This document shows, in pieces, positions 15,757 to 44,229 of a stretch of DNA of 64,000 nucleotides. The position numbers and the translations under genes were made by a program. The notes beneath the pieces are model-generated. The model saw nothing but the letters and a program-made list of their open reading frames with translations. It had not been told where the DNA came from and did not search any database. The stretch covers positions 1,116,001 to 1,180,000 of the forward strand of contig NW_026570230.1 in the NCBI RefSeq assembly GCF_019649055.1, written 5' to 3'. Numbering within the stretch: the first letter of the stretch is position 1; every line of letters begins with the position of its first letter. The DNA is from Paramacrobiotus metropolitanus (Eukaryota > Tardigrada > Eutardigrada > Parachela > Macrobiotidae).

Positions 15757-17055
15757 ACAAACGTGTCGTATGGTGATGGACTTTCAAAGGCTCCCCTTAA
15801 CACCTGCCCAATTTAACTTCCCCAGATATACACTTTTTGAATAGAGAAAACATTTTTGAATGTAAATGTAATTTTTTGGAAAGAGATCGTTTCACGCAGT
15901 GCGAGAAAACAAATTAAATCTGAAGGGACCCAGAGTCAGCTATGCGCCTTCGCTGAGTACTTTGTACACTGCTACCTCGATGGCGGTCGTCCAACTACAC
16001 GATAAGGGATGGTTAAGGTATGGTTATGGTGTTTTCTGCTCAAAGCCTCTATTGGTTGCGGGTTTTGCCACCGGTGAGGTGTGCGGGATTGCGCGTTCGG
16101 CACATCTTTTCCATTAAAAGAGTCACAGGCGGTGCTGTGCGTAATTTGAGGTGGCAGGTCAATTTCGACATTGGATAAGTGTGCCACAGAATCAACAGTC
16201 TAGGCAAACTGTGTTCGCTCTGCAAAAAAAGCTTTCGACATTTTAAATCCTTTGTACCATAAACAGCATAGGTTAATAATCAACAGTAATGCCCTTCGAA
16301 GAATGTTGGTAATAATAATACGTACGTAGGTATCAGTACATTAATAAAAGGTAATATTAATACATATAATAAAACAACATAATTTACTCTTTTTAAAATA
16401 TCAATTTTTGTCTTCACAAGAGCATAAAAATTTGTCACCATATATTTACTGGACTTTTGCTAAATCTCAGCTGTGCGGTTTAATTCTGTGTGGATTACGT
16501 AGAGTATGCTATCTTGTGCTTGACGAGAAAAACACTTTTTTAAGAAAACGACTAGTACTCCAGTTTTGCAGTTGTTCCATGTCGGTTATATGAGCATATT
16601 ACAACCGTCTGCATTTTCTGAAGCGTCCACAAATTCTACGCTAGAAATTTTTTACGTTTAGAAAACGTAAGGTGTTTCTGCAGCAGAAAGTTTGATGACT
16701 GCAGTTTTGTTGACAACATGTGGGGTTCGGAGTAAGCCGGAAATGTAATGGACAGAAGCATTTTGTCCTAGCTATTTACCCAATTAGGAAGAGGAGAAAA
16801 TAAATTCTCCTGTGGTTGAAGCGGAAATGATTTAACACTGTCTGCAACTGGTGCACAAAAACGTTTTCATATGCATTGATCGTGGTAGAGCCTGCACTGG
16901 TGGCGTTTGCTCATTTTTGCCAGCACTGCATGCCGGGTTTGGGATTCAGAATTTGATTTCACAGGCCTAATTACATATTCGAATAATATAGAAACAGTTT
17001 ACAGCCTGCAAATTTTATGCGGTACCAAAGCGTTTGTAGTTAATTAACGTAAACT

Positions 17056-17400
17056 AAAGGAAAATGGCCCGGTACATAACGTTAATAATGGGATACATAC
17101 ACTAAAACTTTCGACTTTATGGCCATGTGTCGTTTGCAGCAAAGTTTCAAGAAGATCGGGTAATAACCAGATTTTTGGTACACAACAATGCATTTAAAGT
17201 TTTTACCCATTTTAGTGCGTCATATCTCGGCAACCGTATGTTGCGCGCGCAAACGGCTTTCAGAACAATGTATACAAATCATATACTGTAGCTTTAGAAT
17301 GGCATAAAGTATTACAAAAAGGTGATTTGGAGTGCGCGAAAGCGAAAGTTTTAGTGTGTGTATCCCATTTTTGACACCATGTACCGGGCCATTTCCCTTA
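17056..17400. mobile_element. MITE-like element, family 1 copy A (about 345 bp)
   Basis: The ends are inverted copies of AAGG(G)AAATGGCCCGGTACAT, and the inverted similarity continues inward (GGGATACATACACTAAAACT against its complement near 17340-17370), so the terminal inverted repeats are about 60 bp. It has no coding capacity. A shorter relative lies at 61101-61315. The TSD is unclear (TA or TTAA). Confidence 0.7.
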
Positions 17401-19589: not shown

Positions 19590-22238
19590 AAAAATTTTTA
19601 GTGCTGTATCGTCCAACATTTTAAACCGTGTATTCACATTCTTCCCAAAGCACCTGCGCTTCGCCTCGGACAACAGCCAGAATCAATCGGTGCATAGAAC
19701 ATTCGGTCGATTGACTTGGTAGAAACATTCTTCAACTATCGTATTTATTTGTATGCTTTTCCATTTTCTTTCTGTAACGCAATCTTTACCTTTTCTAAGA
19801 CAACCTGTGTTTATATTCTAATTGTTTCAGCTTATGCATAGTCTACATCTGCAAGGTATCCACGCGCAACTGCATGAAATATGGGCAAACTTTTAAGCTT
19901 TTTTACCAGTATGAATACATTCATTATGTTGCAAAGTTGAAAGTTGAAATTAATTGCATTATGCAGCGTTTTGCTTGCCGAGTAGAGTGCCATTGACGTT
20001 TAAGCGTCAAGGTCTTGTCTACACTGCCACGAATATAAATTATGAGTGTCGTATTAATTATTAATTATTACTGTTGCATTGCACTGTTGCAGTTTGGGTC
20101 TTTGATAATGCGTGCACGTGTGCGCATGCTTGACAATAACTCGCGGGTTCAAACTCGTGGCACTTGCAGAAGACGGCAATAAATTTCGCAACTTGATTTC
20201 GGCTACAGCTGTGAATGATGCGGCAAGGGGATGGGCAGTTGGGCACTTTGTTTGCAAACAACAACGATCGATGTGGTTTGCCGGCGCATCAGAGGTGAAA
20301 TGTAGTGTTACAGCTGGCCGTCATCATATTCAACAATTACTTCTCCACGCGGCATGAGCCAATAATTGTTAATGTATACGTAAGAGTCGCTATGTACTCG
20401 TATAAATATTAATAAACGTTTATTTAATGGCTCCAGTCTCTACGGAGTGCGATTTGCAGTATTGAAAGAAAGATTTTGTGGACGTGAAAAGGCAGATTAG
20501 GTGTCTACAGAGTATAGTATGTATTTCTGTTCTACTGTTCTTGCATTTTGTATTTCCGGTATCTTCTGGGGCCTTCACATAGTAAGAGCAATAACTGTCG
20601 TTTCTTCTGCTTTATGCAAACGCTTGTGGATAAATTTGTGCCACAGTTCCAATTCAGACCGCACAGTTACGCTTTGCGAAGCGATTTGACACACAAATGC
20701 AGTTCGCCATTTACCACTTCAGTTTTCTGCAGGTTCGTTTGATATCGCAGAAATATTTACTGCAATAAGGAAGTACGTATTCGATGAATCCCAAGGCCAC
20801 CCTCGATCGTTGCAATACCTGTAGGTGAAACTGCGGGTGTGCATACCTGTAACTCTATTACTGATCGCAAGTCAAAGACATTAAATTTTGACATACGAAG
20901 AAGTGATTACGTTTACCTTCTGGATACAAGAAGCAATATGTAGCCGTAGTGCATACATTCCCCTTTATCTTCTTTGTTTCCACTTCGCAAATTAAAGTTA
21001 GGTAGGTGAACTTGAGTCAACGAATCACTAAACATAACGCCTAATGCCAATTAATCAATAATGTTGCAAAAATTGTTACACGGAAAACCTACGGGCCACA
21101 AGTGTGCAGTCACTCAGGCATATTAACATACTATCATTTGCTAATAGACGGATGTGCACAAAATACCGCATACGGCCAAAAAATACTAATTTGCGTGCAT
21201 CTACAAGTGCCATTTTAAATACTTCGCCATTTTCTCGAATGCAGCTTACCAGCCCAGGGCGAAGGATTGCCTGGCATTTTACACGTTTTCAGGCGATGCG
21301 ATTAGGGTTTTCTCGTTGAAAGCACCAGGAAGATACCGGCCAAAAGCACACAATTTACAGTTTAATAATACTTTGATCTATTCTGGCAAATCGCAGAGTA
21401 AGTCACTTCCCCAACGGATACCATAGATGTCGCATGAACAGAATCTGCTCAGAAATTATTTATCATGTAAGCCGGCAGTTTCGGGAATCCCGGTGTTGGG
21501 TCCCAGTTGGCCATTTGGCGCTAATGTGATTTTTTCGAATAAAAACACGCCTTGAAAACCTCACTGATGTGTTGTTAAAATCCCGCTCTTCGGGATAAAA
21601 CGCTTTGGTATATGGTATCAAGATTAACACAAAGCGCGCAAAGTTTATTATGGAAAAACTGTAGAGATACAAAAGCTGCATTTATTTTTAAGTTACAAAC
21701 GCAGATAAGCAAACGCAGAGCTAAGCACGCTGCATTTATTTTTAAGTTCAGTCATGCTGATTGCGGTTTCAGGGCACGGCTACTTGTAGTGTACAATGCA
21801 TGCGTTATGATTACGGAGTGGAATTTGTTGCAACTAAAACATTAAGATTTACATTTTTATGTTAAAGGTACAAAGAAAAACAAACGAGGAAAAACGAAGC
21901 TGCATAGATATTTTGTAAACCGCTAATGTAGCGACAACGGAGAACCTTCTGTTTGCTCCTCCTCCTATTTGACTGACATTAATTATTTTTAATAAAGCTT
22001 ATAATTTAATAGCATTATTAATGACTGCCCTTAACATTTTTTCTGCATCCGCAATGAATTCGGCAAAAGGGTCAACTGATACTTGAGCTCGCATGCAAAA
22101 ACGAGTGACGTAAATCCATCTAGTAAATTAATGTATCAAAAACAGTTGGCAATTAATGCATAATTTTGCATTATGTTACCGATGGACGGCACATGTCTCA
22201 CTTCTCACCGCTGGCATTAATCTGTTGTCCGAACTCTT

Positions 22239-22291
22239 GACATTGCGCTGTATCTGTAGGTGCAAACGCATTCAGCTGCTGGTGTATAAAA
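22239..22291 (+). promoter_or_regulatory. Promoter of lectin-like copy 1: GACATTGCG box + TATA
   Basis: GACATTGCG at 22239-22247 and TATAAAA at 22285-22291, 88 nt before the ATG. The box-to-TATA distance of 46 nt is the same in copies 2, 4 and 5. CTGGCATT...GTTGTCCGAACTCT just upstream is also shared within the family. Confidence 0.7.
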
Positions 22292-22372
22292 GTGTATCCT
22301 TAAATTCCGCTTTGTATTTCTGACTTTGAAATCTCCTGTTGGAGCAACCTCTCGTTTTTTTTACACAATATC

Positions 22373-23648
22373 ATGATAGCAAAAATTCTCACGCTCTGCC
22401 TAGCGGTAAGATAGAATTAGTATTAATTATTCCCGGATGGTACCTAGTAATCTTAGAGCTTTACCACAGTAATCCGAGTTAATTTCCGATGATGTTACGT
22501 CATGTACTTATCGTTATTTGCGATGGTTACCGAAATTGACTTTAGGGTCATGCCATTTTATTGTGATTCTTTTTTACCAGTTAGTGCAACTTCATTAGCT
22601 TGTGCACTGTTCTAAGTAATAGTAGAATAACTGATTACATGCAAAATTATACTGTCACGGTGAAAAATTCGAAACGTTGAATAAGACAAAATTATTCTTG
22701 TTTATCAGCGTTATGTACGTTACTTAAACAATGCTTGATATCCGCTACATATAACCGTACCTGCTTTGTTAATTTAATTTTTTATGGTGCTGCACAAGAT
22801 GGTTATTGCGGTAGTACTGGTTACGCATAACGGCATAGGCAGTATCTAATAAATGGATTTTTTCCGTGTTAGGTTGTTCTGGTGGCAGCTGAACTTTCGG
22901 ACGACGAGCCCAGTTCATCACGTGTGAGCACCAGTGATATGGACACCGGCAATTTCAGAACTGGCATGGCCCGCCAAGCGCTGATTCCATACAGAGAGTT
23001 TCTGACCGTACGGTGCACAAAGGGTTATTCGGTGGCTGTCCATGGAGCATGGTACGTGATGTTGAGCGACGACGAACTGGAAGCCATGGAAACCGATACC
23101 TGCAAACACTCGGACATTCCCGACAAGAACCATTTGTGTCCGACGTCCCAACAAAATGAGCCGGGACTTTGTAGGTTATACTCTCGGGATCCTTCTACTA
23201 ATGCCAAGTGCCGGAGACGCGGAGTGCAGATTGTCTACAACTGCCATAACGGTACGTTGACTATACCGTACTATTTACTAAAATAATTATGTGTAATAAA
23301 TTATGCAGATACATATCACGAAGCGTTGTGATACAATAATTTAATCAATCAGCAAACGAGAAATAATACTCGGTAGTTCTTGAATGCTGCTACTGGATCC
23401 AAAAGATGAAGAACAGTTAAAGATTTTTGCAATTTGTGAACTGAAATACATGTATATACGCGGGTACGCTGATTACTTTTCACCTGCATTCGTACAAAGG
23501 AAATTTTTTTAAGGGTACATTTAATTGCCCGTTTAGCGCAGACACCTCCCCTTTTGCACATCGCAGCTTATTATGAATAAATATTTTCGTTAGCCACAAA
23601 AATAATAAGACTTATGATTTTCCAATTCCAGCTATGTTACGTTCGTGA
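22373..23648 (+). CDS. Secreted SUEL/Gal_Lectin-like domain protein, copy 1 (142 aa)
   Basis: Exons 22373-22405 (33 nt, MIAKILTLCLA), 22873-23251 and 23632-23648. The signal peptide spans the exon 1-2 junction (ends near VVLVAAE) and is followed by an acidic Ser-rich segment (DDEPSSS). The domain runs from LTVRC through HGAWYVML, C..SDIP, CRLYSRDPSTNAKC to VQIVYNC. This pattern, C-x-(L/V)-x-(S/A)...P-x-C ending in (L/I)-x-(I/V)-x-Y-x-C, matches the C-terminal half of the SUEL rhamnose/galactose-binding lectin fold, with six cysteines and a W-Y in place of the canonical YGR. Sugar binding is inferred, not shown. The tail exon ends after only five residues (AMLRS), so the tail seen in copies 2 and 4 is truncated here. 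Confidence 0.72.
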
Positions 23649-24539
23649 TGCCGCACCCCCATCCCCACCCGTACAATGGCACAAGTCCCCAAAGCGATGA
23701 TACTGAACGCCCGAACGCTGAACTTGAAGGGGAAACCATTATACAAATTACAAACATCATGAAAGACCATGGCCATTCGAAATATTTGTGCAGAGTATTG
23801 CTTGATGGGAGTCACACTGAATGCTTTCTAAATTAAAATCAGGTTATCCTGTTTCCTTTCTACTGCATAAACTTTGCATTTAATGCACTTCTTCTCTGTA
23901 AATGTGAAGGTGAGCCCGAAACAATACACTACCCTATCTTACCGGGAACGCTGTAAAACCTACAACGGATATTCTAGTTGCCTCAAAGTAATCACCTTCG
24001 AATAAATGCACGCGCTGGAAATCACACAAATGATGTTAAAATCTCACTTTTAGTGGTTAAACTTTATGGTATACGATTGCATAATTAACCCAAAACCGCG
24101 CAGACTTTATTATGGAAAAAATTAACAAATAGCACAGTGAAAACACGCTGAATTTACTGTGAAGTTCATTCATGTTGTACAGGCAAAAGTTACGTGTAGT
24201 GGACAAGGCATCCATACTTGAAGTACCGTATGCATGCGCAAGCTGCAGATGGGAGGGAATTTCTATTAGATTAAAAACAAAAATTTATATTTTGAAGTCA
24301 AGTTCACCCGGAAAAGCGTATCCCGGAGCTGCTTAAAATTACTGTCCGCAAAAGTCTCCTACATCCGTACTGAATTTAACAAAAATGTCGCTTTTCAGCA
24401 GGCGAAATGAGTGACTTGGGCAAATAAGTGACTTGAGTGTTAATTTGTCAATTGTATCGAAAACAGATGATAAAATTAATTCATACAAATAATTTTACGT
24501 TATCTGACCGATTGATGCACGTGTAAACGCGGTATGTAT

Positions 24540-24740
24540 CCGCGCTGGCACTTGCCAAAATCTGTTGTCCGAACTCTCGAAATTGCACCACTTCAGTATA
24601 TCTTTAGGTGAAAAAGCAGTAAAATATGTACATGTGTCCTGACCAGCTGCTGTGTATTACTGGTTCCTTCTGGCTTGAACTATCCTTCGATTTTCAACCG
24701 CAAAGTAGCAGAGGTCTTTTGTGCTCATTCCATTATAAAA
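24540..24740 (+). pseudogene. Promoter remnant of a lost lectin-array copy
   Basis: GCTGGCACTTGCC, then AAATCTGTTGTCCGAACTCT, then (G)AAATTGCA and a TTTAGGTG block, match the family promoter region. No exon 1 ATG of the MIAKIL type and no lectin domain follows before the retroelement. It looks like a decayed array member. Confidence 0.5.
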
Positions 24741-25273
24741 AAATAGATTCTTTTATTCGGCGTTAGCCAGAACACATACCCAATATTACTAAGCCAGCGT
24801 AGTTTTACACTGTTAATCAAATAGATCTAATTTTAAAACATTGAAAAAACATCCAAAATCGTCAGTGCCATTAGCGATCTTATTACGTGCGTTGATTAAG
24901 GGTACCCCAACAGCCGCTGCATTTCGTCTGATTACCTCTACAAAGTATATTCAAAAATTAAGGAAAGATTCGGCGAAGTAAAATAAGGAAAGATCCGGCG
25001 AAGTTAGGTCCACCTTTTTTTTTTAAAACAGCGTATAAGCCCTGCATTTATTAAGGGCAATGCGGCTGCCGTTTTAGAAACTTTACCGGGCAAGAATAAA
25101 TTTGTTGATAAAGGTTGTTGTTAATTTGTTGATTTTGGTTGTTTTTTAATTCTTGATTGTGCAGTGTCAGCCGTAGTGATAGAGTCATGAATGTTATGTC
25201 GCGATGTAAACATGAATAAAGATTCGTTTATATTCAAAAGTTGTCTAGAAAAGGCAGTAAGCAAGTATAATTA

Positions 25274-25277: not shown

Positions 25278-25852
25278 TGTCGTGTATAAGCGTTCACGCC
25301 GGTTAAGGCTCCATGAACAATCTTTACTCTTCCACGCCTGTAATGTCAGTCGGTAGGCACTCGTACTCTCAAACTGTAACAGAAGAACTATGGTGGAAAT
25401 AAGACGAATGAATCAGGAACACGGGAACTCAGGAATCCCTCAGGAACACGCTAACCACAACTTCCGGTCGTAAGTCCTGTGAGGATCGGCAAGAGCTAGG
25501 ACGATTGTGTCACGAGCAAACCTGTATACTAAGCGATAATCCGGGAACGACTATGCACTTCCGTAGGAACAAGTATTGCTGTCTCTTTATCCAATACACA
25601 TCACAGTTCACAACGCTAGGAAATTGTAATTAGAAAGCAGTCTCAGAAGTAAATCTCAGACTACTGATACCGATATTAGGCATCACAAGAACTTATATAG
25701 ACTTCGCGTTATGACATCATATACATCGCTAGTAAAAGAGAACAGCAAATCACAGAAGAGATTGACTAGATTATCCGTTGTGTTGCAGGTGGAAGGCGGA
25801 CAGTCAGCATCCAGTTCGTACATCCGGCGTATGATCCTACTCCCATACGTCA
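25278..25852 (-). repeat. 3' LTR of the giant element (575 bp)
   Basis: Begins TGTCGTG and ends TACGTCA on the plus strand. Compared by eye, it matches 48699-49273 throughout at the same length. Read on the minus strand, TATATAAG at 25692-25699 is a candidate core promoter. The polypurine tract next to it is weak (GTGGGGG at 25853-25859, minus). Confidence 0.93.
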
Positions 25853-29836: not shown

Positions 29837-30373
29837 ATGTCCACACAGGCTGTAGGACCAGCTGGAGAGCCGTTACCTTCGCCCGAAGCGGACGCGATTG
29901 CCCACTATGAATACTGGAAGGGACGAACTCGCGAATCAGTTCAGTTTGCCATGGCAGAGCCTCTACAGGCAAACGAAACCATCCGAAGCCGTCGACAATT
30001 GGCGATGCATACGGCAGCCCACGCGTGCATTCTTGAGGCTGACATTACGGGATATTATGTGGACATGTCATCTATCAAGAAATTCATTGTGGAAATGCAC
30101 GATGACTTTACAGAAGAACGAGTGGATTTCTTCCTCGGCGACGCTATTAATGCTGGAATCTTGCTCAAGAAAATGAGCCGCGATGGACGTTTTGTGCTCG
30201 AAGTGGCCGAGGAAGTAAAGAATAACCGCGATCCAGAGACGAAGGTAATCGACATAACTAGCAAGTTTCGTCGGATGATCCGCGTGATCCTCTACCACGG
30301 CCGATATGCCATGTCACGCACCGAGAGATCCAACACTGAATCTGGACGTTCGACGTACATCTGCAGGACGTAG
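29837..30373 (+). CDS. Element accessory ORF G: plus-strand 178-aa protein, probably incomplete as read
   Basis: It starts MSTQAVGPAGEPLPSPEADA and continues with a mixed helical sequence (MHTAAHACILEADITGYYVD, FIVEMHDDFTEERVDFFLGD). The codon pattern looks coding. Oriented against gag-pol and not overlapping it. The frame ends at 30373, but directly overlapping it a different frame stays open from about 30342 to 30530 with convincing content (VDYWLERGLRQLV, HVVVVYGNLFVDSC) and ends at a good donor (ATCA|GTAAGT). A 123-nt intron from GTAATC (about 30244) to CTGCAG (about 30366) would join the frames in phase; alternatively a 1-nt indel separates them. Family unknown. Confidence 0.55.
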   Translation: MSTQAVGPAGEPLPSPEADAIAHYEYWKGRTRESVQFAMAEPLQANETIRSRRQLAMHTAAHACILEADITGYYVDMSSIKKFIVEMHDDFTEERVDFFLGDAINAGILLKKMSRDGRFVLEVAEEVKNNRDPETKVIDITSKFRRMIRVILYHGRYAMSRTERSNTESGRSTYICRT

Positions 30374-30629: not shown

Positions 30630-31256
30630 ATGCTACATACTGCAATTTGTCGTACTTTCTGTAGCCTGATTAGAACGATGTATTCTGCAGATATCAAGAT
30701 GGGCACGATGAAGGTTATCGTAAACGGCAAGGAGACCGAACAGCATGTTGCCGATTGCAGCTTTGGCCATGTGGGACAAGACGGGGATTTGGTTGTCGAT
30801 GGCGTCATGGAGCGGCTGGACGCAATCGAGCCGGCAAAGAATAATACCACCAACGTAAATCTGGTAATCCGGGCAAGCAAAGACGGACGCATTGAGCGAG
30901 AACCAATTATCACGCTGACTCAACTGAAAGCTATGGGCGGCCGTCCTAAATACGTTCCCCGATCAAAAAATACAGATACCGAAAAGAAAAGCCAGAAGAT
31001 GAAGGAGAAGGCTGAAAAGCCTGACAATGAAGTGAGCACTGCAGAACCGGATGCTATTAAGAAGCCAGACGCAATCGACAAGTTACTAGAACAGGTTGAA
31101 CGCGAAAAGGATATTATGGATAACTGCAAGGCGCTGGTAAATACGCTGAAGGCTCGAGCAACCATGGACGCTAAACATATCGCGTATATCCGTGAAGCTT
31201 TGGAACAGCGTCTTGCCAACTTGAAAACTGCGAAGGAGAATTTGGATCTGGATTAG
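30630..31256 (+). CDS. Element accessory ORF H: plus-strand 208-aa protein with C-terminal coiled coil
   Basis: Open from the ATG at 30630; later Mets at residues 17, 24 and 27 are alternative starts. The middle part is a mixed alpha/beta-looking segment (MKVIVNGKETEQHVADC, GDLVVDGVMERLDAIE). Then come a Lys/Glu-rich linker and a long helix with heptads (IDKLLEQVEREKDIMDNC, REALEQRLANLKTAKENL). A donor at about 30525 upstream and the acceptor TTCTGCAG before 30692 would join ORF G's second frame to this one in phase, so G and H may be one spliced antisense gene. Function unknown. Confidence 0.55.
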   Translation: MLHTAICRTFCSLIRTMYSADIKMGTMKVIVNGKETEQHVADCSFGHVGQDGDLVVDGVMERLDAIEPAKNNTTNVNLVIRASKDGRIEREPIITLTQLKAMGGRPKYVPRSKNTDTEKKSQKMKEKAEKPDNEVSTAEPDAIKKPDAIDKLLEQVEREKDIMDNCKALVNTLKARATMDAKHIAYIREALEQRLANLKTAKENLDLD

Positions 31257-31682
31257 ACAGCGGTTGAAGCCTATCTGATAATTTCCCGCGGCTGTCTGAT
31301 AACTTTGTTCTAAAATTCGGCCGACTGTTGTTTCTTCCGTTTAATCTCACTCTTGGTGGTTTTATATAATTCTCATCCTACAGATTCTCACATAGCCATT
31401 AATTTTGCTGGTCGAACGGATCTTAATTTGAGATTAATTTTGGATTAATGCAAGGCTTTTAATAACCGGAGTAAAATCAGAGAAGGAGAATACGCAGTCG
31501 CAGTTGCAGTCAATTCCAATATAGATCGGCCCATTAACAAGGTAAAATCAAATATCGTAGCCGTAAGCGTGAATCAAACGCCAAGAACAATTTTAATATT
31601 CCATCCGGAGAATAAAGTTACAGAAATCACCAAAGAAAAGTAAAAAGAATGGAAAGAAACTTTTAAAACTTGCAAAATTTGT
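31257..31682. other. Spacer before tRNA-like array
   Basis: 3' flank of plus-strand ORF H and trailing end of the tRNA-like array. No coding exon seen. Confidence 0.3.
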
Positions 31683-31768
31683 ATTCACGCAGGATTGAAC
31701 CTTGCATCTAGGTGGACAACTAAATCCTGCTCTTGCCCATACGCTAGCATGGCTATGCCACATTATGC
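31683..31768 (-). ncRNA. tRNA-like unit 1 (Pol III A and B boxes)
   Basis: Read on the minus strand, an A-box-like TGGCATAGCC near 31760 is followed about 50 nt on by the B-box-like GGTTCAATCCTG. The trailer is AT-rich with a T tract. The acceptor arms do not pair, so it is not a normal tRNA. Confidence 0.5.
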
Positions 31769-31976
31769 TTTTAATTTGGCAATCACCGGAGGCGCTGTAC
31801 TAGGAGAATTCATAATATAGTAAAAATTCACCACTGAAGCAGCTGATAAATTTTAAGATTTCACCGTCATGATGATCGCAAAATTCGTGCCGACAGCGGG
31901 AATATTTCCACAAGAGTGCCAATAAAAACATGAAAACGAAAAAGTAGGATTTGAGAAAATGCAATTTTAATTTCAA

Positions 31977-32056
31977 GGGGTTTCGAACCCGCAACCTTCA
32001 TTGCACCTGTTGTTGTGGTTCAACAGTTCAGTGCACTACGCCACTACAATCTGCGG
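31977..32056 (-). ncRNA. tRNA-like unit 2
   Basis: Minus strand: A box TGGCGTAGTG and B box GGTTCGAAACC in a TpsiC-like arm (GGGTTCGAAACCC). The trailer runs TTGCATTTTCTCAAATCCTA and then T5. Spacing of the boxes is tRNA-like but the acceptor stem is missing. Confidence 0.6.
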
Positions 32057-32185
32057 AGTTAAACTTTAACTTCGCTCGTCGGGAGTGACCGTAAAATTAG
32101 CGATCTCGAAGCCAACTTAATGCTGCATAGAGATTTAAAACTATAAAACCGAAAAAGAGGGTTTTAAATTAAACGGATTGACTTT

Positions 32186-32258
32186 TAGGATTTCGAACTC
32201 TAGACTTCGTAAGAAGCGGGTCGGTATGGATTGTCAGTCTAGCCACTACGCCACAAGG
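32186..32258 (-). ncRNA. tRNA-like unit 3
   Basis: Minus strand: A box TGGCGTAGTGG fits the eukaryotic consensus; B box GAGTTCGAAATCC is close. A T5 tract follows in the trailer. Confidence 0.6.
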
Positions 32259-32390
32259 TGCTCAACGCTTTAGCCGAGTTAGGTTGAACACCGGAAGCGC
32301 CATGTCGTGTATATTTAAACCAAACAATTAACGCTTCATCCCACAAAGGTACGAAAATATAGGGCAGAAAAATGTAGTTTTAAGCATGCA

Positions 32391-32476
32391 GCATGCAACC
32401 CTGAGATTAAGACTAGCCGTTTAGGAGGTAGTACATGAGGCGAATGGCCATCATTCATAGCCACTGAACTACAAAG
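32391..32476 (-). ncRNA. tRNA-like unit 4 (degenerate B box)
   Basis: Minus strand: A box TAGTTCAGTGG fits the consensus. The B box is degraded (GGGTTGCATG). The trailer keeps TGCTTAAAACTACATTTTT, as in sister units. Confidence 0.45.
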
Positions 32477-32663
32477 TCATTCGAACACAGACAGAGAGAC
32501 GGCCAAATGCAATGTTAACCATTGAGTGTGTATACAATTTTACGCCCAGCTCTTTGAGTTTAATTCTAATATTCTGGGAACCATTGTCAATACTTTTCCC
32601 AAGACGAGAACAAAAATATAAAACGAAAAAAAAGTAAGTTTCTCAAAAGTGCAAATTAGCTGT

Positions 32664-32745
32664 AAGGGACTTGAACCCGCAACCGTTTTATTTCCCCGTT
32701 GCTGCAGTTCAACGGTGCAAAGCACTATACTACGCTGTTCTACGA
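32664..32745 (-). ncRNA. tRNA-like unit 5
   Basis: Minus strand: A box TAGTATAGTGC and B box GGTTCAAGTCC, a full consensus match. The trailer has TTTGCACTTTTGAGAAACTT and then T8, a strong Pol III terminator. Confidence 0.65.
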
Positions 32746-32871
32746 CAGTCATTTTTTAATTCGCACATCGGAAACGATCGTAAAATTACCACGGTCAACA
32801 GCAACGCGTATTTGATGCTACTTTTACAATATAAAAGACAAAAAGAAGGTGTACAAAAATGTGCATTACTA

Positions 32872-32949
32872 GTAAGGGTTTCGAACCCAAGGCCCTAAAT
32901 TCACCGAGTAGTCGCGGAGATAAGGCGGACAACCACTACACTACGAAGT
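32872..32949 (-). ncRNA. tRNA-like unit 6
   Basis: Minus strand: A box TAGTGTAGTGG matches the consensus; B box GGTTCGAAACC has one mismatch. The trailer runs AATGCACATTTTTGTACACC and then T5. Confidence 0.65.
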
Positions 32950-33114
32950 CTCACGCTATAAACACAAAATCCAAACGAGAAGGGCTGTACAATTATGTGC
33001 CGCTCGTGGAAAACTAATAAGGAATCAACGGTATCACACCGAATGTGTAAGTACAAACAAATGCAAAAAAATTCAAGCACAAAAAAGAAGGTTTTAAGAA
33101 AATGTTTTTGATTT

Positions 33115-33200
33115 TTTGGGGATTGGAACCCAGGACCAGCAACAGGTAAACGGATTCGCCTGGTATTGTCCTCTTAACTGGACCACTCGACTACAAGAGT
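33115..33200 (-). ncRNA. tRNA-like unit 7 (class II, Leu/Ser-like)
   Basis: Minus strand: A box TAGTCGAGTGG and B box GGTTCCAATCC both fit. The D-arm GTCGAGTGGTCC and the longer middle part resemble tRNA-Leu/Ser with a long variable arm. The trailer ends in T6. Confidence 0.65.
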
Positions 33201-33362
33201 CATCGACAAAAATAGTACTAACAACACAGCTGGCAGTATTCATTTCGACACCTCTCAACAGCGATTCAGCCAATATTCCCCACATTAAATCCCACGAATA
33301 AGAATATAACGATTCATGAAATAAAAAACCAAAAATGAGGATATTTACAAAATCGCATTTTT

Positions 33363-33436
33363 ATGTAGACTGGAACCTCCGACCTCCAATGACGAAGCAA
33401 CGGAAGCCTCTACTATACTAGCGGGGTCGCTCTACG
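33363..33436 (-). ncRNA. tRNA-like unit 8
   Basis: Minus strand: A box TAGTATAGTAG and B box GGTTCCAGTC. The trailer carries AATGCGATTTTGTAAATATC and T5. This is the most gag-pol-proximal unit of the array. Confidence 0.55.
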
Positions 33437-33964: not shown

Positions 33965-34147
33965 TCAAGGAATCTTAGGAGGGAGCTTGGATACAGCCTC
34001 CTTGACGGCAATTCTGCCACGCTCAAAACGCTGCTGGGCTTCAGTGCATTCGGCCATCTTCTGCGCCACTATCTCCGTCCATGCCGAGACACGGTTCTCC
34101 AGCGCCTGCTTGGCCGCGTTCTTCTTCTCCGAAGCTGGAGGAGTCAT
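33965..34147 (-). CDS. Element accessory ORF F: 60-aa helical miniprotein
   Basis: From the ATG at 34147 (MTPPASEKKNAAKQALENRV) this small frame encodes one long amphipathic helix with Ala/Gln/Glu/Lys bias (VAQKMAECTEAQQRFERGR). The composition is unlike random AT-rich sequence. The helix resembles a dimerisation coiled coil, and the frame may be an exon of a larger product. Function unknown. Confidence 0.4.
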   Translation of the reverse strand: MTPPASEKKNAAKQALENRVSAWTEIVAQKMAECTEAQQRFERGRIAVKEAVSKLPPKIP

Positions 34148-34648
34148 CGTGATTTGACAGATAACCACAGTATAACAGATTGCAGAAATAAACTTAAGGC
34201 AGCGGAATCAGCGGAATAAGATTACGGTAATTGTAAACAATTAAATTAAAATAAAAATTGATACTGGGATACATTCAGGATAGGGCTCTGCCAGCCGCCC
34301 ACGCTGGCGACCGCATACTTCGTAACCAGCGAAGTCCATTAACACACGGCCTACGGCAGAGCGTGTGTATTGCAGCCACACTTCTAGACGTTGTCAGCCA
34401 CTTCACTAGAGTGTGTATATTAAGATAATATACACTCAGCAATTTACAACTTTTAATTCATAAAATGCAGGATTTTCCGAACGTTTTAAAACCTGTTTCA
34501 ATGCTTTAAACTTCCACAAAATTACCGCAACATCCACAGCATTATGCTATCGATACAAAATTCACAAAACAGAGCCAGAACAATAGGCTCGATCACAACT
34601 GGAGGAAGAGCAAGGCAGCGTTCAGTTTAAACGCTCAAAACGCAGCAG

Positions 34649-37346: not shown

Positions 37347-39215
37347 TCAGGCCAGAAAAACCGAAGGTTTTTTATACAAGAAATCATATGGCGAAATGGC
37401 ACTGCCATACTTATGAAGTAGCCGACGGTGTACTGATTCGGCTAATATTTTACGCCATTGAAACGGAATCAGAATTTTAGGGATTCTTTTCTGGATATCC
37501 TCTCTTTCGCCGTAATGGCAGATAATGCCTTTTACTTTCAGAACTAGAGGGAGATGCCAGGCCGCGTATGCAGATTCCTCAAGAGTGCAATCTCCATCAA
37601 CAACGGCGTCCCACAACATCATGTCACTGCACTCCATCTGGCGATACCTCCAGAATTCCTGCTTATCAAGAGCGTCATCGGATATTACGCCTTGTGGCCA
37701 GAACTGCTCAATTGGACGTGCCCAAGCCGGAACTGGAAGAATTCTGTCTTCTACAATAGGCAAGGCAGTTTTCGATAGCTGTGACGGCCCAATCTCCATT
37801 GCGTTACAAGTAATTAGCGGAGTATCACTGGCCACCGGGGCAACTAGTTCAGACTGGCCCCCTCCCGGCTGGGATACATTCAGAATAGCCGGTTCTCTAT
37901 CATTTGTGGCCATGCGCTTTTTAGCATCAGCCGACGGGTCTCTCTTACGCTTTTTGTCGTTCATCTGATTAATAAATCTCTCCACAGGTTTCACCACACG
38001 CCCGGAGCGGGTTTTAAGCAGTGGAACCGCTTCCATCTGGTTATCGAGATATTCAGCGTACTCAGCATCAAGGCGCGACGATGCTGAGTCCACGGATGGA
38101 ACCACCGGTGGCGGCGCGGGCGCCTCAACTAATTCATCGGGGCACTCCTTCTCCACACAGTCAAGCAACTTCGGTAAGTGCTCATCCTGTAAAATAGTAT
38201 CAACGTCGCGGAAATTATACGGCTTTAAACGGCTGACATGTACAGTGTCAGTTTTGACATTTCCGCGCCGGTTACCTTTTACTACATAATGTACCGGCCC
38301 TGACTGACGCACAATTTCCCATCCAGCAGTCCAACGGGGCATAAGGGATGGATTTTTCCCCACTTTCCGATGAAGTACGTACACCAAAACCTGATCACCG
38401 GCTTTATACGAGGTATGGGATATATTGGCATCATATCTAATTTTATCTTTAAGCTTATGGCGAAACTCTTCTGCATTCACTAAATCCAAGGCCTCACCAA
38501 GGCCGCGTTGCATCTGCTGTACATGTACATGGGCGGGAATCACAAAATCCTCTTCCAACGGCAGGAAGTTATTTATCGGTAAGCGCATCTCAGTGCCATG
38601 CATCATGAAGAACGGTGAACGGCCCGTTCGCTCCACAACCTTACTGTTAAATGCCGCACAAAGTGCTGGGAGGAATATGTCCCAGTCACTTTGCTGCTCA
38701 TTCACATACTTGGCTAGCGCCTTTTTGATTTCCCCTTCGCGTTTTTCAACCAGACCGTTACCCTGCTGGTGGCCTGACGCCGTCGGTGCGTGAGCAACAC
38801 CAGCGAGAGCGAGAAGCTCCCGAAACATCTCAGACATGAAATTACTGCCGCGGTCTGAGGTAATGTGTACCGGCATGCCAAAGACCGTGAGAATACGACG
38901 ATAAAAGAACAACGCCAGAGTGGCGGCATCATTTCTCTCGACCGCCTCAGCCACAATGTATTTGCTCCCGTAATCTACTGCAATAATTATGTTTTTGTTT
39001 CCAGATTCCGTCGTTGGGAGGGCCGGAGCAACATCAATTGCCCAAACTAACCGAGGAGGAACGGTCGGGTTTGACTGGAGAGCGCCGGCCGGTGCCGTAA
39101 GAGGATTTTGTGCAAGGCACGCCGGGCAAGAAGCGCAATAACTTTTAACAGACTCGAACATACGGGGCCAATAAAAATATTTATACATCCTCTTATAGGT
39201 GGCCAGGACGCCCAA
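37347..39215 (-). CDS. Integrase ORF of the element (622 aa as read)
   Basis: The zinc-binding CASCPAC (about residues 27-33) belongs to the H2C2 domain. Its His part (NHDSPLAAHLG) lies just upstream of the first ATG in the same frame, behind a TAG. The catalytic core has Asp in WAIDVAP (about 63), Asp in SDRGSNF (about 122) and Glu in NGLVEKREG, with exactly 35 residues between the last two (DD35E). The following GDQVLVYV...WTAGWEIVRQSGPVHYVV region is the usual C-terminal SH3-like DNA-binding part. Beyond it the protein extends further with an FW-Q-C motif and IPFQWRKIL...HRRLLHKYG, a truncated extra H2C2 module. It integrates element cDNA in the nucleus. Confidence 0.9.
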   Translation of the reverse strand: MGVLATYKRMYKYFYWPRMFESVKSYCASCPACLAQNPLTAPAGALQSNPTVPPRLVWAIDVAPALPTTESGNKNIIIAVDYGSKYIVAEAVERNDAATLALFFYRRILTVFGMPVHITSDRGSNFMSEMFRELLALAGVAHAPTASGHQQGNGLVEKREGEIKKALAKYVNEQQSDWDIFLPALCAAFNSKVVERTGRSPFFMMHGTEMRLPINNFLPLEEDFVIPAHVHVQQMQRGLGEALDLVNAEEFRHKLKDKIRYDANISHTSYKAGDQVLVYVLHRKVGKNPSLMPRWTAGWEIVRQSGPVHYVVKGNRRGNVKTDTVHVSRLKPYNFRDVDTILQDEHLPKLLDCVEKECPDELVEAPAPPPVVPSVDSASSRLDAEYAEYLDNQMEAVPLLKTRSGRVVKPVERFINQMNDKKRKRDPSADAKKRMATNDREPAILNVSQPGGGQSELVAPVASDTPLITCNAMEIGPSQLSKTALPIVEDRILPVPAWARPIEQFWPQGVISDDALDKQEFWRYRQMECSDMMLWDAVVDGDCTLEESAYAAWHLPLVLKVKGIICHYGEREDIQKRIPKILIPFQWRKILAESVHRRLLHKYGSAISPYDFLYKKPSVFLA

Positions 39216-39314: not shown

Positions 39315-41597
39315 TTATAATAAACAACGCCCTGTTTCACGGCAAATTTGTTTAGATGTAATTTCTCGTGGTCTGACATTTTTTTCCTTTTTATTCTCTA
39401 GGAGCAGTCGCCATCGGACAATCCTCGCGTCTCGAGACTGCTCTTCAGCCCAGTATGAAGCCTTATCGTCAGTAATGAGCTTCTGCACTTTGTCTGCATC
39501 AAAAGCCTTCATATCTTCTTCAGAAATGGCTTTAACTTCGGCCGACATCATCTCGAAACGGATATCCACGTAGTCTCGTTCCAGGATAGCGAAACAACAC
39601 TCGATCATCGCGGCATCACCGGCGAAAGGGTAAGTTTGCCGATAGTCAAACTCGATATCCGAGTCGTCGGAGTCGGGTTCCGGTTGCTCTCCTGGATTTC
39701 TGCTTAACGCGTCAGCAATAACGTTCTCTTTACCGGGAATATGTACCGGTTTAGTGTTAAATTGTTGGATATACAACGCCCAGCGCCCGAGGCGGCCAGC
39801 GGCATCACGCATATTATTTAGGAAGACCAAAGCTTGGTGATCAGTTTGTACTTCGAACTGATAATCGGAAAGATAGTGTTTCCATTTTTTGAGAGCGCAA
39901 ATAACAGCATAGGCCTCAAGCTCAGTAGGGAAGTAGAGCCTTTTCTGTGTTTCAGTCAACTTGCGGCTTAAATATGCAATAGGACGCCAGTTTGTTGGCA
40001 CGTCCGTCGGTTTATCCTTGGGACATTGCATAAGAACTGCACCCACAGCAATAGTACTGGCATCGACGATAACTCGCGACAAAGCCTCTGGGTCATAACG
40101 GGCCAAGACCGGCGCCGTCACCAAGGCCTCCTTCAATTGTTCCACAGACCTGCACTGATCCGTTCCCCATTCAAAGGTAACTTTTTTAGGAATCAACTTC
40201 TGAAGCGGCTCCGCAATCTCTTGAAAATTTTTAATAAATTGGCGATAATATCCCACCATGCCCAGGAACCGTAATATGTCTTTCTTGTCTTTTATAGGGC
40301 CAAATTCCTTAACCGCCTGGATCTTCTCTGGATCTGTACTTATACCGAACTGATCGACCGTATGACCCAAAAAGGTAATCGAGTTAACAAACAGTTCTGT
40401 TTTTTCAGGGTTAATGGTCCAGCCGCATTCCTGGAGCCGCAAGAAGAGCTCCTGTAGATCCCGCATGTGATCTGCCAGGTTTTTACTGAAGACAATAATG
40501 TCATCAATAAAAACTAACACGTTCCTCCACTTCATATTTGCAAGCGTTAAATCCATGGCGCGCTGGAAAGCCGAAGGCGCGTCCTTCATCCCAAAAGGTA
40601 AGACTTTGTATTGGAATGTGAATTCCTCGCCAACCATTGTTGTTTTGCATCGGTCTTCCGGTTTGATTTTTATTTGCCAAAATCCACTCTTTAAGTCAAT
40701 CTTGCTAAAGACCGTTGCTTTATCAAGGGCATTTAGAATATCGTCAACTCTGGGAAGCGGGTAACTGCTGCCCATTAACCGTTCGTTAAGCTTACGGAAA
40801 TCCACGGTTAAACGCCGGGATTTATCCTTCTTCTTTACGATGCATATGGGACTGCCCCACGCCGAATTTGTTGGCTCAATGATACCGTCTTTAATCATTT
40901 CCTGTGTTTTAGCTTGGAGCCATTTTCGATCCTCGAACGACGTGCGATACGGAGGAGTTCTGACCGGCAAACTCGGACCTGTGTCCACGGAGTGCTCATA
41001 AATGGTACAGCATCCCACAGGACGCGCTTTAGTCGGTAAGACTGATTTTGCCTGATAAAATATAGCTTTTAATTCTTCCTTGCTGGGGCAAATGTCTCCA
41101 ACTTTAATTTTGGCGAAGGTTTCCTCTGTTTCAGGGTCAACAGAGACAGGAGCGGACAACTGCGACTGCATCGCCACACATTCGGTAATTTTTCCCGGCA
41201 CTGGAATGCCCTTGTCATCGCTGGGAACACCACTAATCGCTTCTTGACAACTCTCCTGAAACTCTGGAGAGTCCATCTGGTACACTGCATCTACCAGCGC
41301 GACTTCGCCAAGGTTGGTTTCTTCGTTTAAAACCAGCGGTTTATCAGATACGTTAACGACGCAGACTCGACAATTTCCGTATTCGTTAAGCGTTAAGACG
41401 CCGTCCAGCAATACCGCATTTTTATTTGTTTCTGGAATTTTTCCTTCGTAGAGAAAGGGCTGAGTATATAAATACTCATCCTGGAATTCCATGAATTGCT
41501 CATCGGACATCGACGTCGTAGCGCGGATAATTCCCTGTGAATGGGGTTGGATTATCACCGGGGGAAGCCGGAAATAACTCCATTTTAAAGCAATCAA
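39315..41597 (-). CDS. Reverse transcriptase / RNase H ORF of the element (760 aa as read)
   Basis: RT: GIIEPTNSAWGSPI, DFRKLNERL, FSKIDLKSGFWQI, LPFGMKDAPSAFQRAMD and the catalytic VFIDDIIVFS (about residue 364). RNase H: VIVDAS (about 512), TELEAYAV, TDHQAL (about 588), VIADALSR (about 628). These are Ty3/gypsy hallmarks. It overlaps the upstream protease ORF by 98 nt in the +1 frame, so +1 recoding or a break is needed between them. The frame ends at 39315, but sequence typical of the RT-integrase linker (KFAVKQGVVYYKFEL) continues in another frame. Confidence 0.95.
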   Translation of the reverse strand: MIALKWSYFRLPPVIIQPHSQGIIRATTSMSDEQFMEFQDEYLYTQPFLYEGKIPETNKNAVLLDGVLTLNEYGNCRVCVVNVSDKPLVLNEETNLGEVALVDAVYQMDSPEFQESCQEAISGVPSDDKGIPVPGKITECVAMQSQLSAPVSVDPETEETFAKIKVGDICPSKEELKAIFYQAKSVLPTKARPVGCCTIYEHSVDTGPSLPVRTPPYRTSFEDRKWLQAKTQEMIKDGIIEPTNSAWGSPICIVKKKDKSRRLTVDFRKLNERLMGSSYPLPRVDDILNALDKATVFSKIDLKSGFWQIKIKPEDRCKTTMVGEEFTFQYKVLPFGMKDAPSAFQRAMDLTLANMKWRNVLVFIDDIIVFSKNLADHMRDLQELFLRLQECGWTINPEKTELFVNSITFLGHTVDQFGISTDPEKIQAVKEFGPIKDKKDILRFLGMVGYYRQFIKNFQEIAEPLQKLIPKKVTFEWGTDQCRSVEQLKEALVTAPVLARYDPEALSRVIVDASTIAVGAVLMQCPKDKPTDVPTNWRPIAYLSRKLTETQKRLYFPTELEAYAVICALKKWKHYLSDYQFEVQTDHQALVFLNNMRDAAGRLGRWALYIQQFNTKPVHIPGKENVIADALSRNPGEQPEPDSDDSDIEFDYRQTYPFAGDAAMIECCFAILERDYVDIRFEMMSAEVKAISEEDMKAFDADKVQKLITDDKASYWAEEQSRDARIVRWRLLLENKKEKNVRPREITSKQICRETGRCLL

Positions 41598-44229
41598 TCG
41601 GACCGGGTTCTGGCTCGAAGCGGTAAATATCGTGTTCTACCGAACTAACTTCGACCTGCGCTTGTGCCTGGTTCAGATGGGCGTCCCTGTACGCCAGCTC
41701 GATGACATCCTTCGAATACACGCATGCCGGGATATCCGTGGATTCCCGGACGTCCTGAGACCGTTTGGGCAAATTTTTAGCCACCGGCTGTTGTACTGCC
41801 AGTGCTGGCTGCACTGTCTCAGCTGACATCTGGCTTGCCGCCTCTCTTTCCGCATATTCCCGTCTGATTCTACGGCTGTAACTGGACTTTTTACGCCGAG
41901 GAGAACTCCTTCCCGAACCTTCCGGTGACGGTTCATAATTTCCCACGGTGGGTTGGACTAGACTGACAGCTGCAGATTCACTCAACGCTTTTTGTTTCTG
42001 GATCTCATTCCAGATTTCCCACTGTTCATTCATATTAACATTTGTCGAGACATCATAGGTCGCTCTGACATCCTCTGAAACGAACTCCGACGGCTTCGGC
42101 GGCGGTGAGTTACTAATCATTTGAGAATTTATTTCCCTTTGCTTCTCCGCCTGTTTATCTTCATAGGAGACCGGACACGGGCCGATATTAATGGGCTTCA
42201 TGCTTTCCGCGGGGATAAAGCTACCATTTTCAAATTCACCTGCTGGTGCCGGGTTATCCACGGAAAAGGTAACCTTACGTTTTCCTGTAGCTTTCTGTGC
42301 GGTCAACTGTTCATTTCTTTTAATCGTTTCAAAATGCCGACGGTCATTAATCGAGTTTCGACATACGTCGCAGTTCTTTTCGTACCGTTCAATTTCAATT
42401 ATACAGTCTGGCCAGTAAAATAACTTCACTAAGTACGGATATAACTTTTCATGCCGGCCGTACGCTTGCTTATGGATTAGAATTTCGTGAAAGCAGGCTA
42501 TCAACTTTTGTCGCCATTGATGCGGCACGTAAATTCTCGGGCAAGCACCACTATGATCGGGTACTCTGCACAATATACCTTCGCAGATAATAAACCGATT
42601 AATCTCGTACTTTGTGAAATTCGTATTAGCATGCGACGGCTTTTTGTACATTTTGTACCACATCCGGCTATCAACACACTGCTGCTGAGTTTCGCGCCAA
42701 AACTGTGGATCTCTGAAACGTTGTTCCGATGGAAACAATTGTTTATCCTGTGGCCTATCCATCGGCGTCATCCACTTCTTCAACTCTGGATTCCGTGCCA
42801 TGTAAGACGGATAATCGTGGACCTCATCGACTTCTCTGCGGTCGCGCTCAACAGGTATAACATTAAGCAATTTGTTATCCATGCTAAGACATTCGACCAC
42901 CTTCGCTGATTTCTCCAAAACTCCCATGTATAGATATTTTGCTGCAGGATGCTGTTTCAATACTGCGTCCACAGAAGAAATCTGAATCGGAAGTTGCAGG
43001 GAATCGTCACCCCCACGAACTTGACTAGAGCCGGAATTAGACACTGTACTGACCGATGACGAAGACGAGGTAATCGGGTTGCTTGCCGGTAATGGCTGTA
43101 AAACTTTTTCCTTTTTAAATGGCGGCTGGGAAGACGCCTGTTCTCTCCCCCGCGAACTTGACTGCATACTGTTTACAATTGTTTCACCGCCTCCCCCACG
43201 AACTTGACTTGGTTCTGGGTTTTTCTCTACTTTAATCTCTTGCTTAATTGCAGGACGAACAGGTTCATCCGCGACGGAAGCTGCTCTCGGGAGATATTGA
43301 CGAATCATCTCCTGTACTACACTACGCACAAATTCTTCATCACGCTGATCGGATCCCTTTTTAATCGGGGCTAACTGGACTGGTGTAGTTTCCTTAACTT
43401 CCGTTTTCACCGGGGCATCAGCCACTTTAGTCACTGGTGGTGGCGCGACTGGACGCGGCCACTCCTGCTTAGCCTTTTGTAAGTGAAGAATACAAATTTC
43501 TGGATCAGCCTTTGCTAGAATTAAATGAGCTGACTCATATGGTACAAATTTTGCTTCTTTAGCGACGCCAATGCGCTCTGTCAACATCAACGCAGGGATT
43601 GCAGGGGATGGCTTAACTCCCACAGGAATTAACGGATCAAAATCGTGTGACCTAATGACGTCCGACATCAGGTGAGTTTCGCGGCGAAAGAATGCCGGAG
43701 CGTTAGACTGTCTACGGGAGAGACGCCAAGTCATAGTGTTCATATCTAAAATAAAAGGCTTTGTAGCTAAAAAGTCCAAACCTAAAACAACGTGGTCCCT
43801 ATCGAAAGTGGAACTCACAAGCATTGCGTGCTCAAAAGCCATCCCAAATTCGTGGATTGTAACCACTACTGACAACGGCTCGATCAACTGTCTTCCTTGA
43901 TACGCTGTGTGGACGACTCTGCCTTTAATGTGATCCGGGCAACGATGAATATTTAATTTTAAATCTTTTGCCATTTTTAAAGACATAACGGAAATGCTAG
44001 AACCCGTATCCAGCATAGTCTTCACTTTCTGATAGTTAATGTCGATTACAGAATACCAAGCCTGGGCATCAAGCGTCGGCAACAGACACACATGATCCGC
44101 TAGAGGATACTGCGAAAAGTCCTGGACTTCCATTTTGTTACACTGCGGCGTCGGAGAAGACAAACCAGCAGGTAGGTCCAACTCCATCATATTAATTTGT
44201 TGCTGCGGGTTGTTGTACCTTGCCAACAA
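41500..44229 (-). CDS. Protease ORF with an extra integrase-type zinc module (909 aa from first ATG)
   Basis: The retropepsin active site MLDTGSSISV lies at about residues 72-81, with the flap/second motif VLGLDFL further on. A long Ser/Pro/charged linker follows, then an unexpected module: DPQFWRE (about 506), YVPHQWRQKLIACFHEILIH (about 581) and FYWP...CDVC (about 622). This is the H-H-C-C pattern of integrase_H2C2 domains, here upstream of RT. The frame is open upstream of the ATG to a TAG at 44440-44442 and there encodes the zinc knuckle CFRCHGLHPAAGC (44275-44313), the nucleocapsid finger. The protein is therefore meant to start from a Gag fusion. Confidence 0.88.
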   Translation of the reverse strand: MLARYNNPQQQINMMELDLPAGLSSPTPQCNKMEVQDFSQYPLADHVCLLPTLDAQAWYSVIDINYQKVKTMLDTGSSISVMSLKMAKDLKLNIHRCPDHIKGRVVHTAYQGRQLIEPLSVVVTIHEFGMAFEHAMLVSSTFDRDHVVLGLDFLATKPFILDMNTMTWRLSRRQSNAPAFFRRETHLMSDVIRSHDFDPLIPVGVKPSPAIPALMLTERIGVAKEAKFVPYESAHLILAKADPEICILHLQKAKQEWPRPVAPPPVTKVADAPVKTEVKETTPVQLAPIKKGSDQRDEEFVRSVVQEMIRQYLPRAASVADEPVRPAIKQEIKVEKNPEPSQVRGGGGETIVNSMQSSSRGREQASSQPPFKKEKVLQPLPASNPITSSSSSVSTVSNSGSSQVRGGDDSLQLPIQISSVDAVLKQHPAAKYLYMGVLEKSAKVVECLSMDNKLLNVIPVERDRREVDEVHDYPSYMARNPELKKWMTPMDRPQDKQLFPSEQRFRDPQFWRETQQQCVDSRMWYKMYKKPSHANTNFTKYEINRFIICEGILCRVPDHSGACPRIYVPHQWRQKLIACFHEILIHKQAYGRHEKLYPYLVKLFYWPDCIIEIERYEKNCDVCRNSINDRRHFETIKRNEQLTAQKATGKRKVTFSVDNPAPAGEFENGSFIPAESMKPINIGPCPVSYEDKQAEKQREINSQMISNSPPPKPSEFVSEDVRATYDVSTNVNMNEQWEIWNEIQKQKALSESAAVSLVQPTVGNYEPSPEGSGRSSPRRKKSSYSRRIRREYAEREAASQMSAETVQPALAVQQPVAKNLPKRSQDVRESTDIPACVYSKDVIELAYRDAHLNQAQAQVEVSSVEHDIYRFEPEPGPIDCFKMELFPASPGDNPTPFTGNYPRYDVDVR

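Follow-up and report, generated by a model that had tools for sequence, protein, structure and literature searches.

Why does a retroelement carry a row of tRNA-like units, and are these working genes or remnants? The question is raised by a locus of the tardigrade Paramacrobiotus metropolitanus, a stretch of 64,000 nucleotides (hereafter the window) in which an initial annotation had described eight minus-strand units, 170–310 nt apart, each with motifs resembling the A and B boxes of Pol III promoters and a shared trailer ending in a T-run. All eight tRNA-like units are found on the minus strand between positions 31643 and 33433 of the window, with their A boxes spaced by 210–281 nt, and the shared trailers with their terminal T-runs are likewise present. 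The extent given for the array is right in its eight units but not in its end at 31683, as the terminator of unit 8 lies at ~31643.

A Ty3-type LTR element and its eight units

The array lies inside a whole LTR retroelement of 23,996 bp (25278–49273, minus strand) that has TG...CA ends and the TSD CTAT on both sides. Its 5′ LTR (48699–49273) and 3′ LTR (25278–25852), each 575 bp long, are identical at 575/575 positions, and adjacent to the former lies a primer-binding site (PBS, 48682–48698), of whose first 13 bases 12 match the complement of the 3′ end of one host tRNA-Lys(TTT). On the same strand as the array the element encodes a 1180-aa ORF in the gag position (44349–47891), assigned by position and without a gag family in Pfam, followed by an ORF with an aspartyl protease (41500–44229, PF13975), a reverse transcriptase-RNase H (39315–41597, PF00078 and PF17917), whose best PDB match is the Ty3 Gag-Pol, and an integrase (37347–39215, PF17921 and PF00665). 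Pfam thus places RT-RNase H upstream of integrase, and with the LTR pair, the TG...CA ends, the TSD and the PBS also present, the element is a Ty3-type LTR retrotransposon; the initial annotation had assigned the array to an LTR retroelement. Six further ORFs of the element scanned with Pfam returned no family.

A search of the genome (169.8 Mb, 533 contigs) with the reverse transcriptase gave at least 60 matches, four of which lie in open frames of more than 3500 codons and match without a stop. Since these frames are open and the LTRs of the window's copy are identical, recent activity of the element family is indicated. The SL1 leader of nematodes has no exact match, and a nematode origin was rejected. 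Relatives of the reverse transcriptase outside this genome are at most 43% identical among the best 120 of 641, and none of ten stretches of viral contigs that fitted the search pattern was confirmed as a relative. Diverged direct repeats, 64–91% identical, lie on both sides of the element (17000–24900 and 49500–61400), and because they flank both sides the element appears to sit within a locally duplicated host region.

The units are arranged as follows, the A-box positions being their starts: unit 1 (33325–33433; A box 33420, B box 33377, T-runs 33335 and 33328), unit 2 (33081–33206; A box 33193, B box 33130, T-run 33086), unit 3 (32839–32957; A box 32943, B box 32887, T-run 32844), unit 4 (32625–32745; A box 32732, B box 32677, T-run 32633), unit 5 (32367–32484; A box 32471, no good B box, T-run 32372), unit 6 (32152–32265; A box 32253, B box ~32201, T-run 32156), unit 7 (31938–32058; A box 32043, B box 31989, T-run 31943) and unit 8 (31643–31772; A box ~31762, B box 31701, T-run 31646). 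Seven of the eight units hence possess both boxes, some with one to three mismatches, and unit 5 has no B box.

We first counted A boxes with at most one mismatch that have a B box, likewise with one mismatch at most, 25–75 nt behind them. Six A sites of the array, in units 2, 3, 4 and 7, qualify, and none of 1000 dinucleotide shuffles of the array reaches six (mean 0.01, largest 1). Allowing two mismatches in the B box adds unit 1 and raises the count to seven sites, with at most three in the shuffles. The remainder of the window contains one further match by the first criterion on the minus strand and none on the plus strand. Perfect B boxes of the form GGTTCRANNCC occur five times in the window, with 0.53 expected, and three of the five are inside the array. 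Unit 7, for which both boxes had been described, is one of the four units with such pairs.

A motif resembling TTYCCGRTG precedes the A box by 41–47 nt in units 1, 4, 6 and 7 and in both units read from a diverged relative of the element (locus L068, see below); in unit 8 a similar motif stands at −30, and it was not seen at these places in units 2, 3 and 5. Because this motif was derived from the same units, we regard it as a lead only.

The units are not working tRNA genes, in agreement with the initial annotation. ARAGORN reports no tRNA gene in the window with bacterial or standard-code settings, with or without introns, and its mitochondrial model makes seven weak calls in the window, none of them inside the array; at 75% stringency it returns 220 'genes' in the window, which is noise. 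Rfam finds nothing in the window at the gathering score, and between 31400 and 33700 a search at E≤10 yields four unrelated families and no match to the tRNA family (RF00005). A similarity to tRNAs is nevertheless detectable when the units are scored against 20 of the at least 60 host tRNA loci: unit 4, the nearest to a host tRNA, exceeds all 828 control tiles in its similarity to tRNA-Trp, and units 2, 3, 5, 6 and 7, but not units 1 and 8, fall within the top 1% of these tiles.

Folding does not account for the units either. Predicted folds of single sequences (every fifth copy) have mean z values between −0.5 and 1.1 over the eight units, and since this is no better than shuffles, we see neither a miRNA hairpin per unit nor a strong shared fold. 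RNAalifold against column shuffles gives mild values only, with z from −2.3 to −3.0 for units 5, 7 and 8 and from 0.5 to −1.9 for the others. A stem between A and B box, scored on the copies long enough for the respective unit so that n differs by unit, does not surpass shuffles in units 3, 7 and 8 and lies only at the 5–15% level in units 1, 2, 4 and 6, so that we claim no common stem. The conserved features are linear: boxes, middle, trailer and terminator. A coding cause of the conservation is rejected, as the longest stop-free stretch varies from 76 to 169 codons and in strand (14/40 copies). Antisense matches of the units within the element are, in their greatest length, no better than shuffles for all eight units.

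Constraint on the units among genomic copies

The initial annotation had taken a lack of the array in other copies of the element, or boxes conserved no better than their flanks, as the sign of decayed tRNA-derived SINEs. A genome search with the array gave 52 matching pieces at 40 scored places (the best 40 of 59 candidates), 26 of which match the array end to end within 5 bases at 82–100% identity; four more array places beyond these 40 appear in a search with a unit. We aligned 40 copies, the window's and 39 others fetched with flanks, over 6.7 kb, and calculated mean pairwise diversity from columns with less than 40% gaps. With kinship ignored, this amounts to 0.049 in the A boxes, 0.072 in the B boxes and 0.078 between the boxes, the latter two including some wrong columns because the B boxes of units 5 and 6 were misplaced, and to 0.126 in the trailers and 0.161 in the spacers. 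The non-coding flanks reach 0.256 in the 500 nt upstream and 0.203 in the 380 nt downstream, and third codon positions of three neighbouring ORFs 0.25–0.31, again with kinship ignored. The array is thus present in other copies, and its boxes are better conserved than the flanks. When the unit labels are shifted round the array, one of 1790 shifts reaches the observed difference in diversity between unit bodies and the rest.

The same picture emerges from a blind scan for the lowest non-overlapping 60-nt windows of the 6.7-kb alignment, which uses neither motifs nor box positions and ignores kinship. The first seven windows fall on units 8, 1, 6, 4, 5 (3′ part), 7 and 5 (5′ part), with unit 8 holding the lowest of the whole region and the window on the 3′ part of unit 5 extending 18 nt past the unit. 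In eighth place follows a spacer, that separating units 4 and 5 (32508–32567), and in ninth place the sequence immediately upstream of unit 6; unit 3 ranks tenth and unit 2 fourteenth. Constraint is therefore not confined to the units, since spacers are less diverse than the flanks and the eighth-lowest window is a spacer.

The box sequences themselves were compared among copies long enough for the respective unit, so that n differs by unit here and in the T-run counts. Unit 4 has the best B box, with no mismatch in 35/37 copies; that of unit 8 has two mismatches in 37/38, and that of unit 6, which is poor in the window's copy, has a single mismatch in 17/38. Unit 5, for which a full B-box consensus had been claimed, has no convincing B box, as 33/35 copies show four to five mismatches; its A box is without mismatch in 37/38 copies.

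At the ends of the units, T-runs of at least five T are present in 89–100% of copies for every unit, although their length drifts. Fifteen runs of this kind lie outside the units, of which 14 are kept in 19–68% of copies and one, at 31928 directly behind unit 7, in 90%; a T-run within unit 3's own trailer persists in 5%. Within the unit bodies TTTT occurs in 9 of 302 copy-units. Among 140 control segments TTTT is present in a mean of 53% of copies, and 11% of segments have none. Terminal T-runs that are retained and internal TTTT that is rare are what Pol III transcription would impose, and are not expected of DNA-binding sites alone. With boxes at tRNA-like distance, a T-run, little internal TTTT and constraint, the units carry the marks predicted for Pol III type 2 genes, and we are highly confident that they represent functional Pol III units.

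The boxes might also matter as DNA, with bound TFIIIC separating sense from antisense genes or keeping chromatin open and any RNA being a by-product. Such a boundary role is suggested by the position of the array between the sense block of the element and two accessory ORFs that run antisense to the element and point towards the array, as208 (30630–31256, plus strand) and as178 (29837–30373, plus strand). Both are under protein-level constraint across copies, with diversities at codon positions 1/2/3 of 0.124/0.105/0.297 for as208 and 0.077/0.081/0.251 for as178. In at least 27 of the 39 other copies the as178 frame exceeds 180 codons (27 distinct proteins). Neither ORF matches a Pfam family, as178 has no homologue at E≤0.001 among 57 candidates, and its predicted structure (mean pLDDT 40) was not used. 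The A box that unit 5 keeps without a B box would also fit a boundary, as would the collision between a Pol III cluster and convergent Pol II transcription in BLV (PMC4992882). However, constraint between the boxes comes close to that on the B boxes themselves, with the reservation on wrong columns made above, and some of the least diverse 17-nt windows of the region lie in the middle of unit 6; terminal T-runs are also retained, and TTTT is seldom found inside the units. Since DNA binding alone needs neither kept middles nor terminators, we consider a boundary role unlikely.

We instead favour the reading that the array constitutes eight small Pol III type 2 genes belonging to a family of giant Ty3-type LTR elements. 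TFIIIC would bind the internal A and B boxes, and Pol III would start just upstream of the A box and stop at the T-run, which would yield separate RNAs of roughly 100–130 nt. Their production could continue while the LTR's Pol II promoter is silenced, and they may act in trans in favour of the element, along the lines of the BLV Pol III cluster or the MHV68 TMERs. Transcription, RNA ends and action in trans are here what we infer from the conserved sequence; taken as a whole, a selected array of Pol III type 2 small-RNA genes acting in trans for the element appears to us fairly likely. Dozens of copies preserve the units almost without change, which makes it probable that these are functioning genes for small RNAs of the element and not debris.

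Not every unit is needed, since unit 3 is deleted in five of the 40 copies and unit 2 is missing in one. Unit 3 is absent from six of the 40 aligned rows, five times through a deletion and once through a contig end. Five copies (L037–L040 and L042) show a deletion that runs from just 3′ of the T-run of unit 2 through most of unit 3, and in L041 a stretch including unit 2 is missing.

A second LTR/PBS junction and a diverged family

Upstream of unit 6 the element contains an internal copy of the junction between LTR end and PBS (32286–32313, minus strand). Its first 17 nt, TATACACGACATGGCGC, are found exactly both at the 5′ LTR/PBS junction (48693–48709) and at 32297–32313 on the minus strand. 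Across the genome this 17-mer occurs at 116 places with at most one mismatch, compared to two for the reversed-pattern control; the 100 places listed of these 116 are all exact, many of them in pairs 16–17 kb apart. The diversity of the internal 17-mer is 0.003, as low as in only 7 of 6690 17-nt windows (kinship ignored). Just past the 17-mer the two sites of the window differ in their bases, and a diverged family of the element has the internal version without any change. The internal copy is thus a second object of constraint, for which a second priming or recognition site is one idea; the bipartite PBS of Ty3 is a precedent for a second site.

This motif raises the alternative that the array serves replication in cis, through tRNA mimicry in the genomic RNA (primer capture or packaging) together with the internal LTR/PBS copy, perhaps as a second priming site part-way along the 24-kb genome. 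The identity of the 17-mer at both places, its excess over the control, its low diversity and its persistence in the diverged family all speak for such a role. The array, however, lacks the primer 3′ end that the PBS needs, the longest shared piece being 6 nt, and the agreement of the internal site with the PBS ends after TGGCGC; with none of 20 host tRNAs does this site pair in a run reaching the 6-base cut-off. A role in cis would moreover explain one spacer motif, but not eight sets of boxes and terminators, and we regard it as quite improbable as an explanation of the array.

The diverged family became apparent from as178, whose 105 matches fall into groups with ~92–96%, 75–83%, 66–72% and lower identity to the window's copy. 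In one member, L068 (as178 69% identical), a single stretch of 301 bases was read. It contains a unit 6 with the A box TAGCGTAGTGG, a canonical B box and the end CCTCCTTTTT, the middle of which is largely changed, and behind it the first part of a further unit, similar to unit 4 (83% over 120 bases). A search with the L068 sequence matches at 86–100% at eight of 40 scored places, L068 included.

Strict box pairs were also searched genome-wide and gave 425 matches, with none for the reversed-pattern control; positions were listed for 100 of the 425, on contigs up to C21. On these contigs, all four elements of the 66–72% class have one or two strict matches between the reverse transcriptase and as178 in the right orientation. 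The distance from the end of the reverse transcriptase to the A box of unit 3 is 6372 bases in the window and 6393, 6432 and 6362 bases in three of these relatives; in the fourth (C3:1528911) this distance is, by subtraction, 6111 bases. In one of the four, a 72% relative, unit 3 agrees with that of the window at 11/11 positions of the A box, 29/45 of the middle and 10/11 of the B box. As judged from boxes, orientation and spacing, parts of the array recur in a diverged family, located as in the window's copy. Since the middle is conserved among members of the family but differs in the diverged one, the target of the RNAs may be family-specific. A more distant element on C2 (as178 39%, RT 74%) likewise has one strict match in the interval between RT and as178 in the right orientation (chance 0.007 per interval), which is only suggestive because other distant elements on the listed contigs (C9, C13 and C11:1523070) show no strict match.

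These data also bear on the possibility that the units are decayed tRNA-derived SINEs that inserted into the element and were carried along. The host does contain the 425 strict matches, and among the eight with letters shown, four on contig C1 (e.g. C1:521965–522018) are near-identical tRNA-like sequences of 54 nt that look like a tRNA-derived repeat, perhaps a host SINE; in addition, units 4 and 7 are in part similar to tRNA-Trp. Such debris would not be expected to show the constraint, the terminator retention and the synteny across families described above. Searches with units led exclusively to arrays found before (the best 40 of 58 and of 61 candidates scored), so that these best candidates include no dispersed single-unit copies, and the aligned copies do not show neutral decay of the units. 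We thus deem decayed SINEs highly improbable, although an origin of the first unit from a SINE or a tRNA is possible.

Known Pol III RNA clusters and neighbours of the array

Clusters of Pol III RNAs are known in retro-elements, to our knowledge all from vertebrate retroviruses. The BLV microRNAs come from hairpins, and the TMERs of MHV68 are arranged as a tandem group. The latter had been named in the initial annotation as the nearest analogy, a comparison that holds for the tRNA-like design, but BLV is at least as close. According to PMC4992882, BLV possesses a Pol III cluster of 10 microRNAs with a type 2 promoter in an integrated retro-element, which runs with the 5′ LTR silenced and faces convergent antisense transcription from the 3′ LTR with polymerase collision. 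The present element is close to this in lay-out, with a putative Pol III type 2 cluster and convergent antisense genes, expression of the cluster being predicted. The two differ in that the units here are tRNA-like and without conserved hairpins, and in that BLV is a cattle retrovirus and the present carrier a 24-kb Ty3-type element; lacking a pre-miRNA hairpin in each unit (mean z −0.5 to 1.1), the array does not belong to the class of BLV-type miRNA clusters. With the TMERs (PMC8223928) the units share A and B boxes in a tRNA-like 5′ portion, predicted transcription by Pol III, an end at a T-run and RNA behind the tRNA-like portion. Unlike the units, TMERs combine a tRNA-like structure with miRNA hairpins in a DNA virus; here tRNA models are empty and no hairpin is conserved, and an assignment to TMER-like RNAs, with their tRNA-like 5′ structure and 3′ hairpins, is rejected.

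Foamy viruses are also reported to make small retroviral RNAs by Pol III, but these are hairpins, located in the LTR for one simian foamy virus, and do not form a tRNA-like array. The TRIMp3 elements Cassandra, Helenus and Ajax are LTR elements with 5S- or tRNA-derived Pol III promoters, which are located in the LTRs of short non-autonomous elements (PMC10886601). The present array is in contrast internal, 5.8 kb from the 3′ LTR, in a 24-kb element with reverse transcriptase and integrase, and hence not of the TRIMp3 class. In size the element resembles the giant Ty3/gypsy-like Burro and Ogre (16 to >30 kb, Ogre with one or two extra ORFs), compared here by description, and a review that covers them (PMC6431247) has no match to words beginning with 'tRNA' or 'Pol III'. 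Among the papers listed on Pol III or tRNA-like units in LTR elements and on giant elements, covered by titles and the starts of abstracts and mostly outside subscription papers, we found no Pol III array in an LTR retrotransposon.

A broader reading, plausible but tentative, is that a battery of Pol III RNAs acting in trans may have evolved in a whole clade of giant Ty3-type elements, separately from those of retroviruses and herpesviruses of vertebrates, in which promoter, trailer and terminator are fixed, a middle of 30–45 nt is kept within and changed between families as for RNAs recognising a fast-evolving partner, and the battery is coupled to the second copy of the LTR/PBS junction. This reading is weakened by unit 3, the middle of which is only partly changed between families. 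If tRNA-like units without hairpins are indeed under selection in an LTR retrotransposon, small-RNA batteries would have arisen more than once in retro-elements and would not be tied to miRNA, and the dozens of natural variants within one genome would offer a system in which to ask what such RNAs do. The internal junction copy leads to a separate question, namely whether giant elements have a second site for priming or recognition.

Further conserved sequences are located upstream of the array. A candidate small ORF of 60 codons (33965–34147, minus strand), read by eye, lies in a well conserved stretch. Another conserved stretch, non-coding (34240–34415, minus strand), contains two stable hairpins, with an RNAalifold z of −6.7 against column shuffles over 35 copies. 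It shows little covariation because its core hardly varies, and its 5′ half exists in two unrelated versions among the copies.
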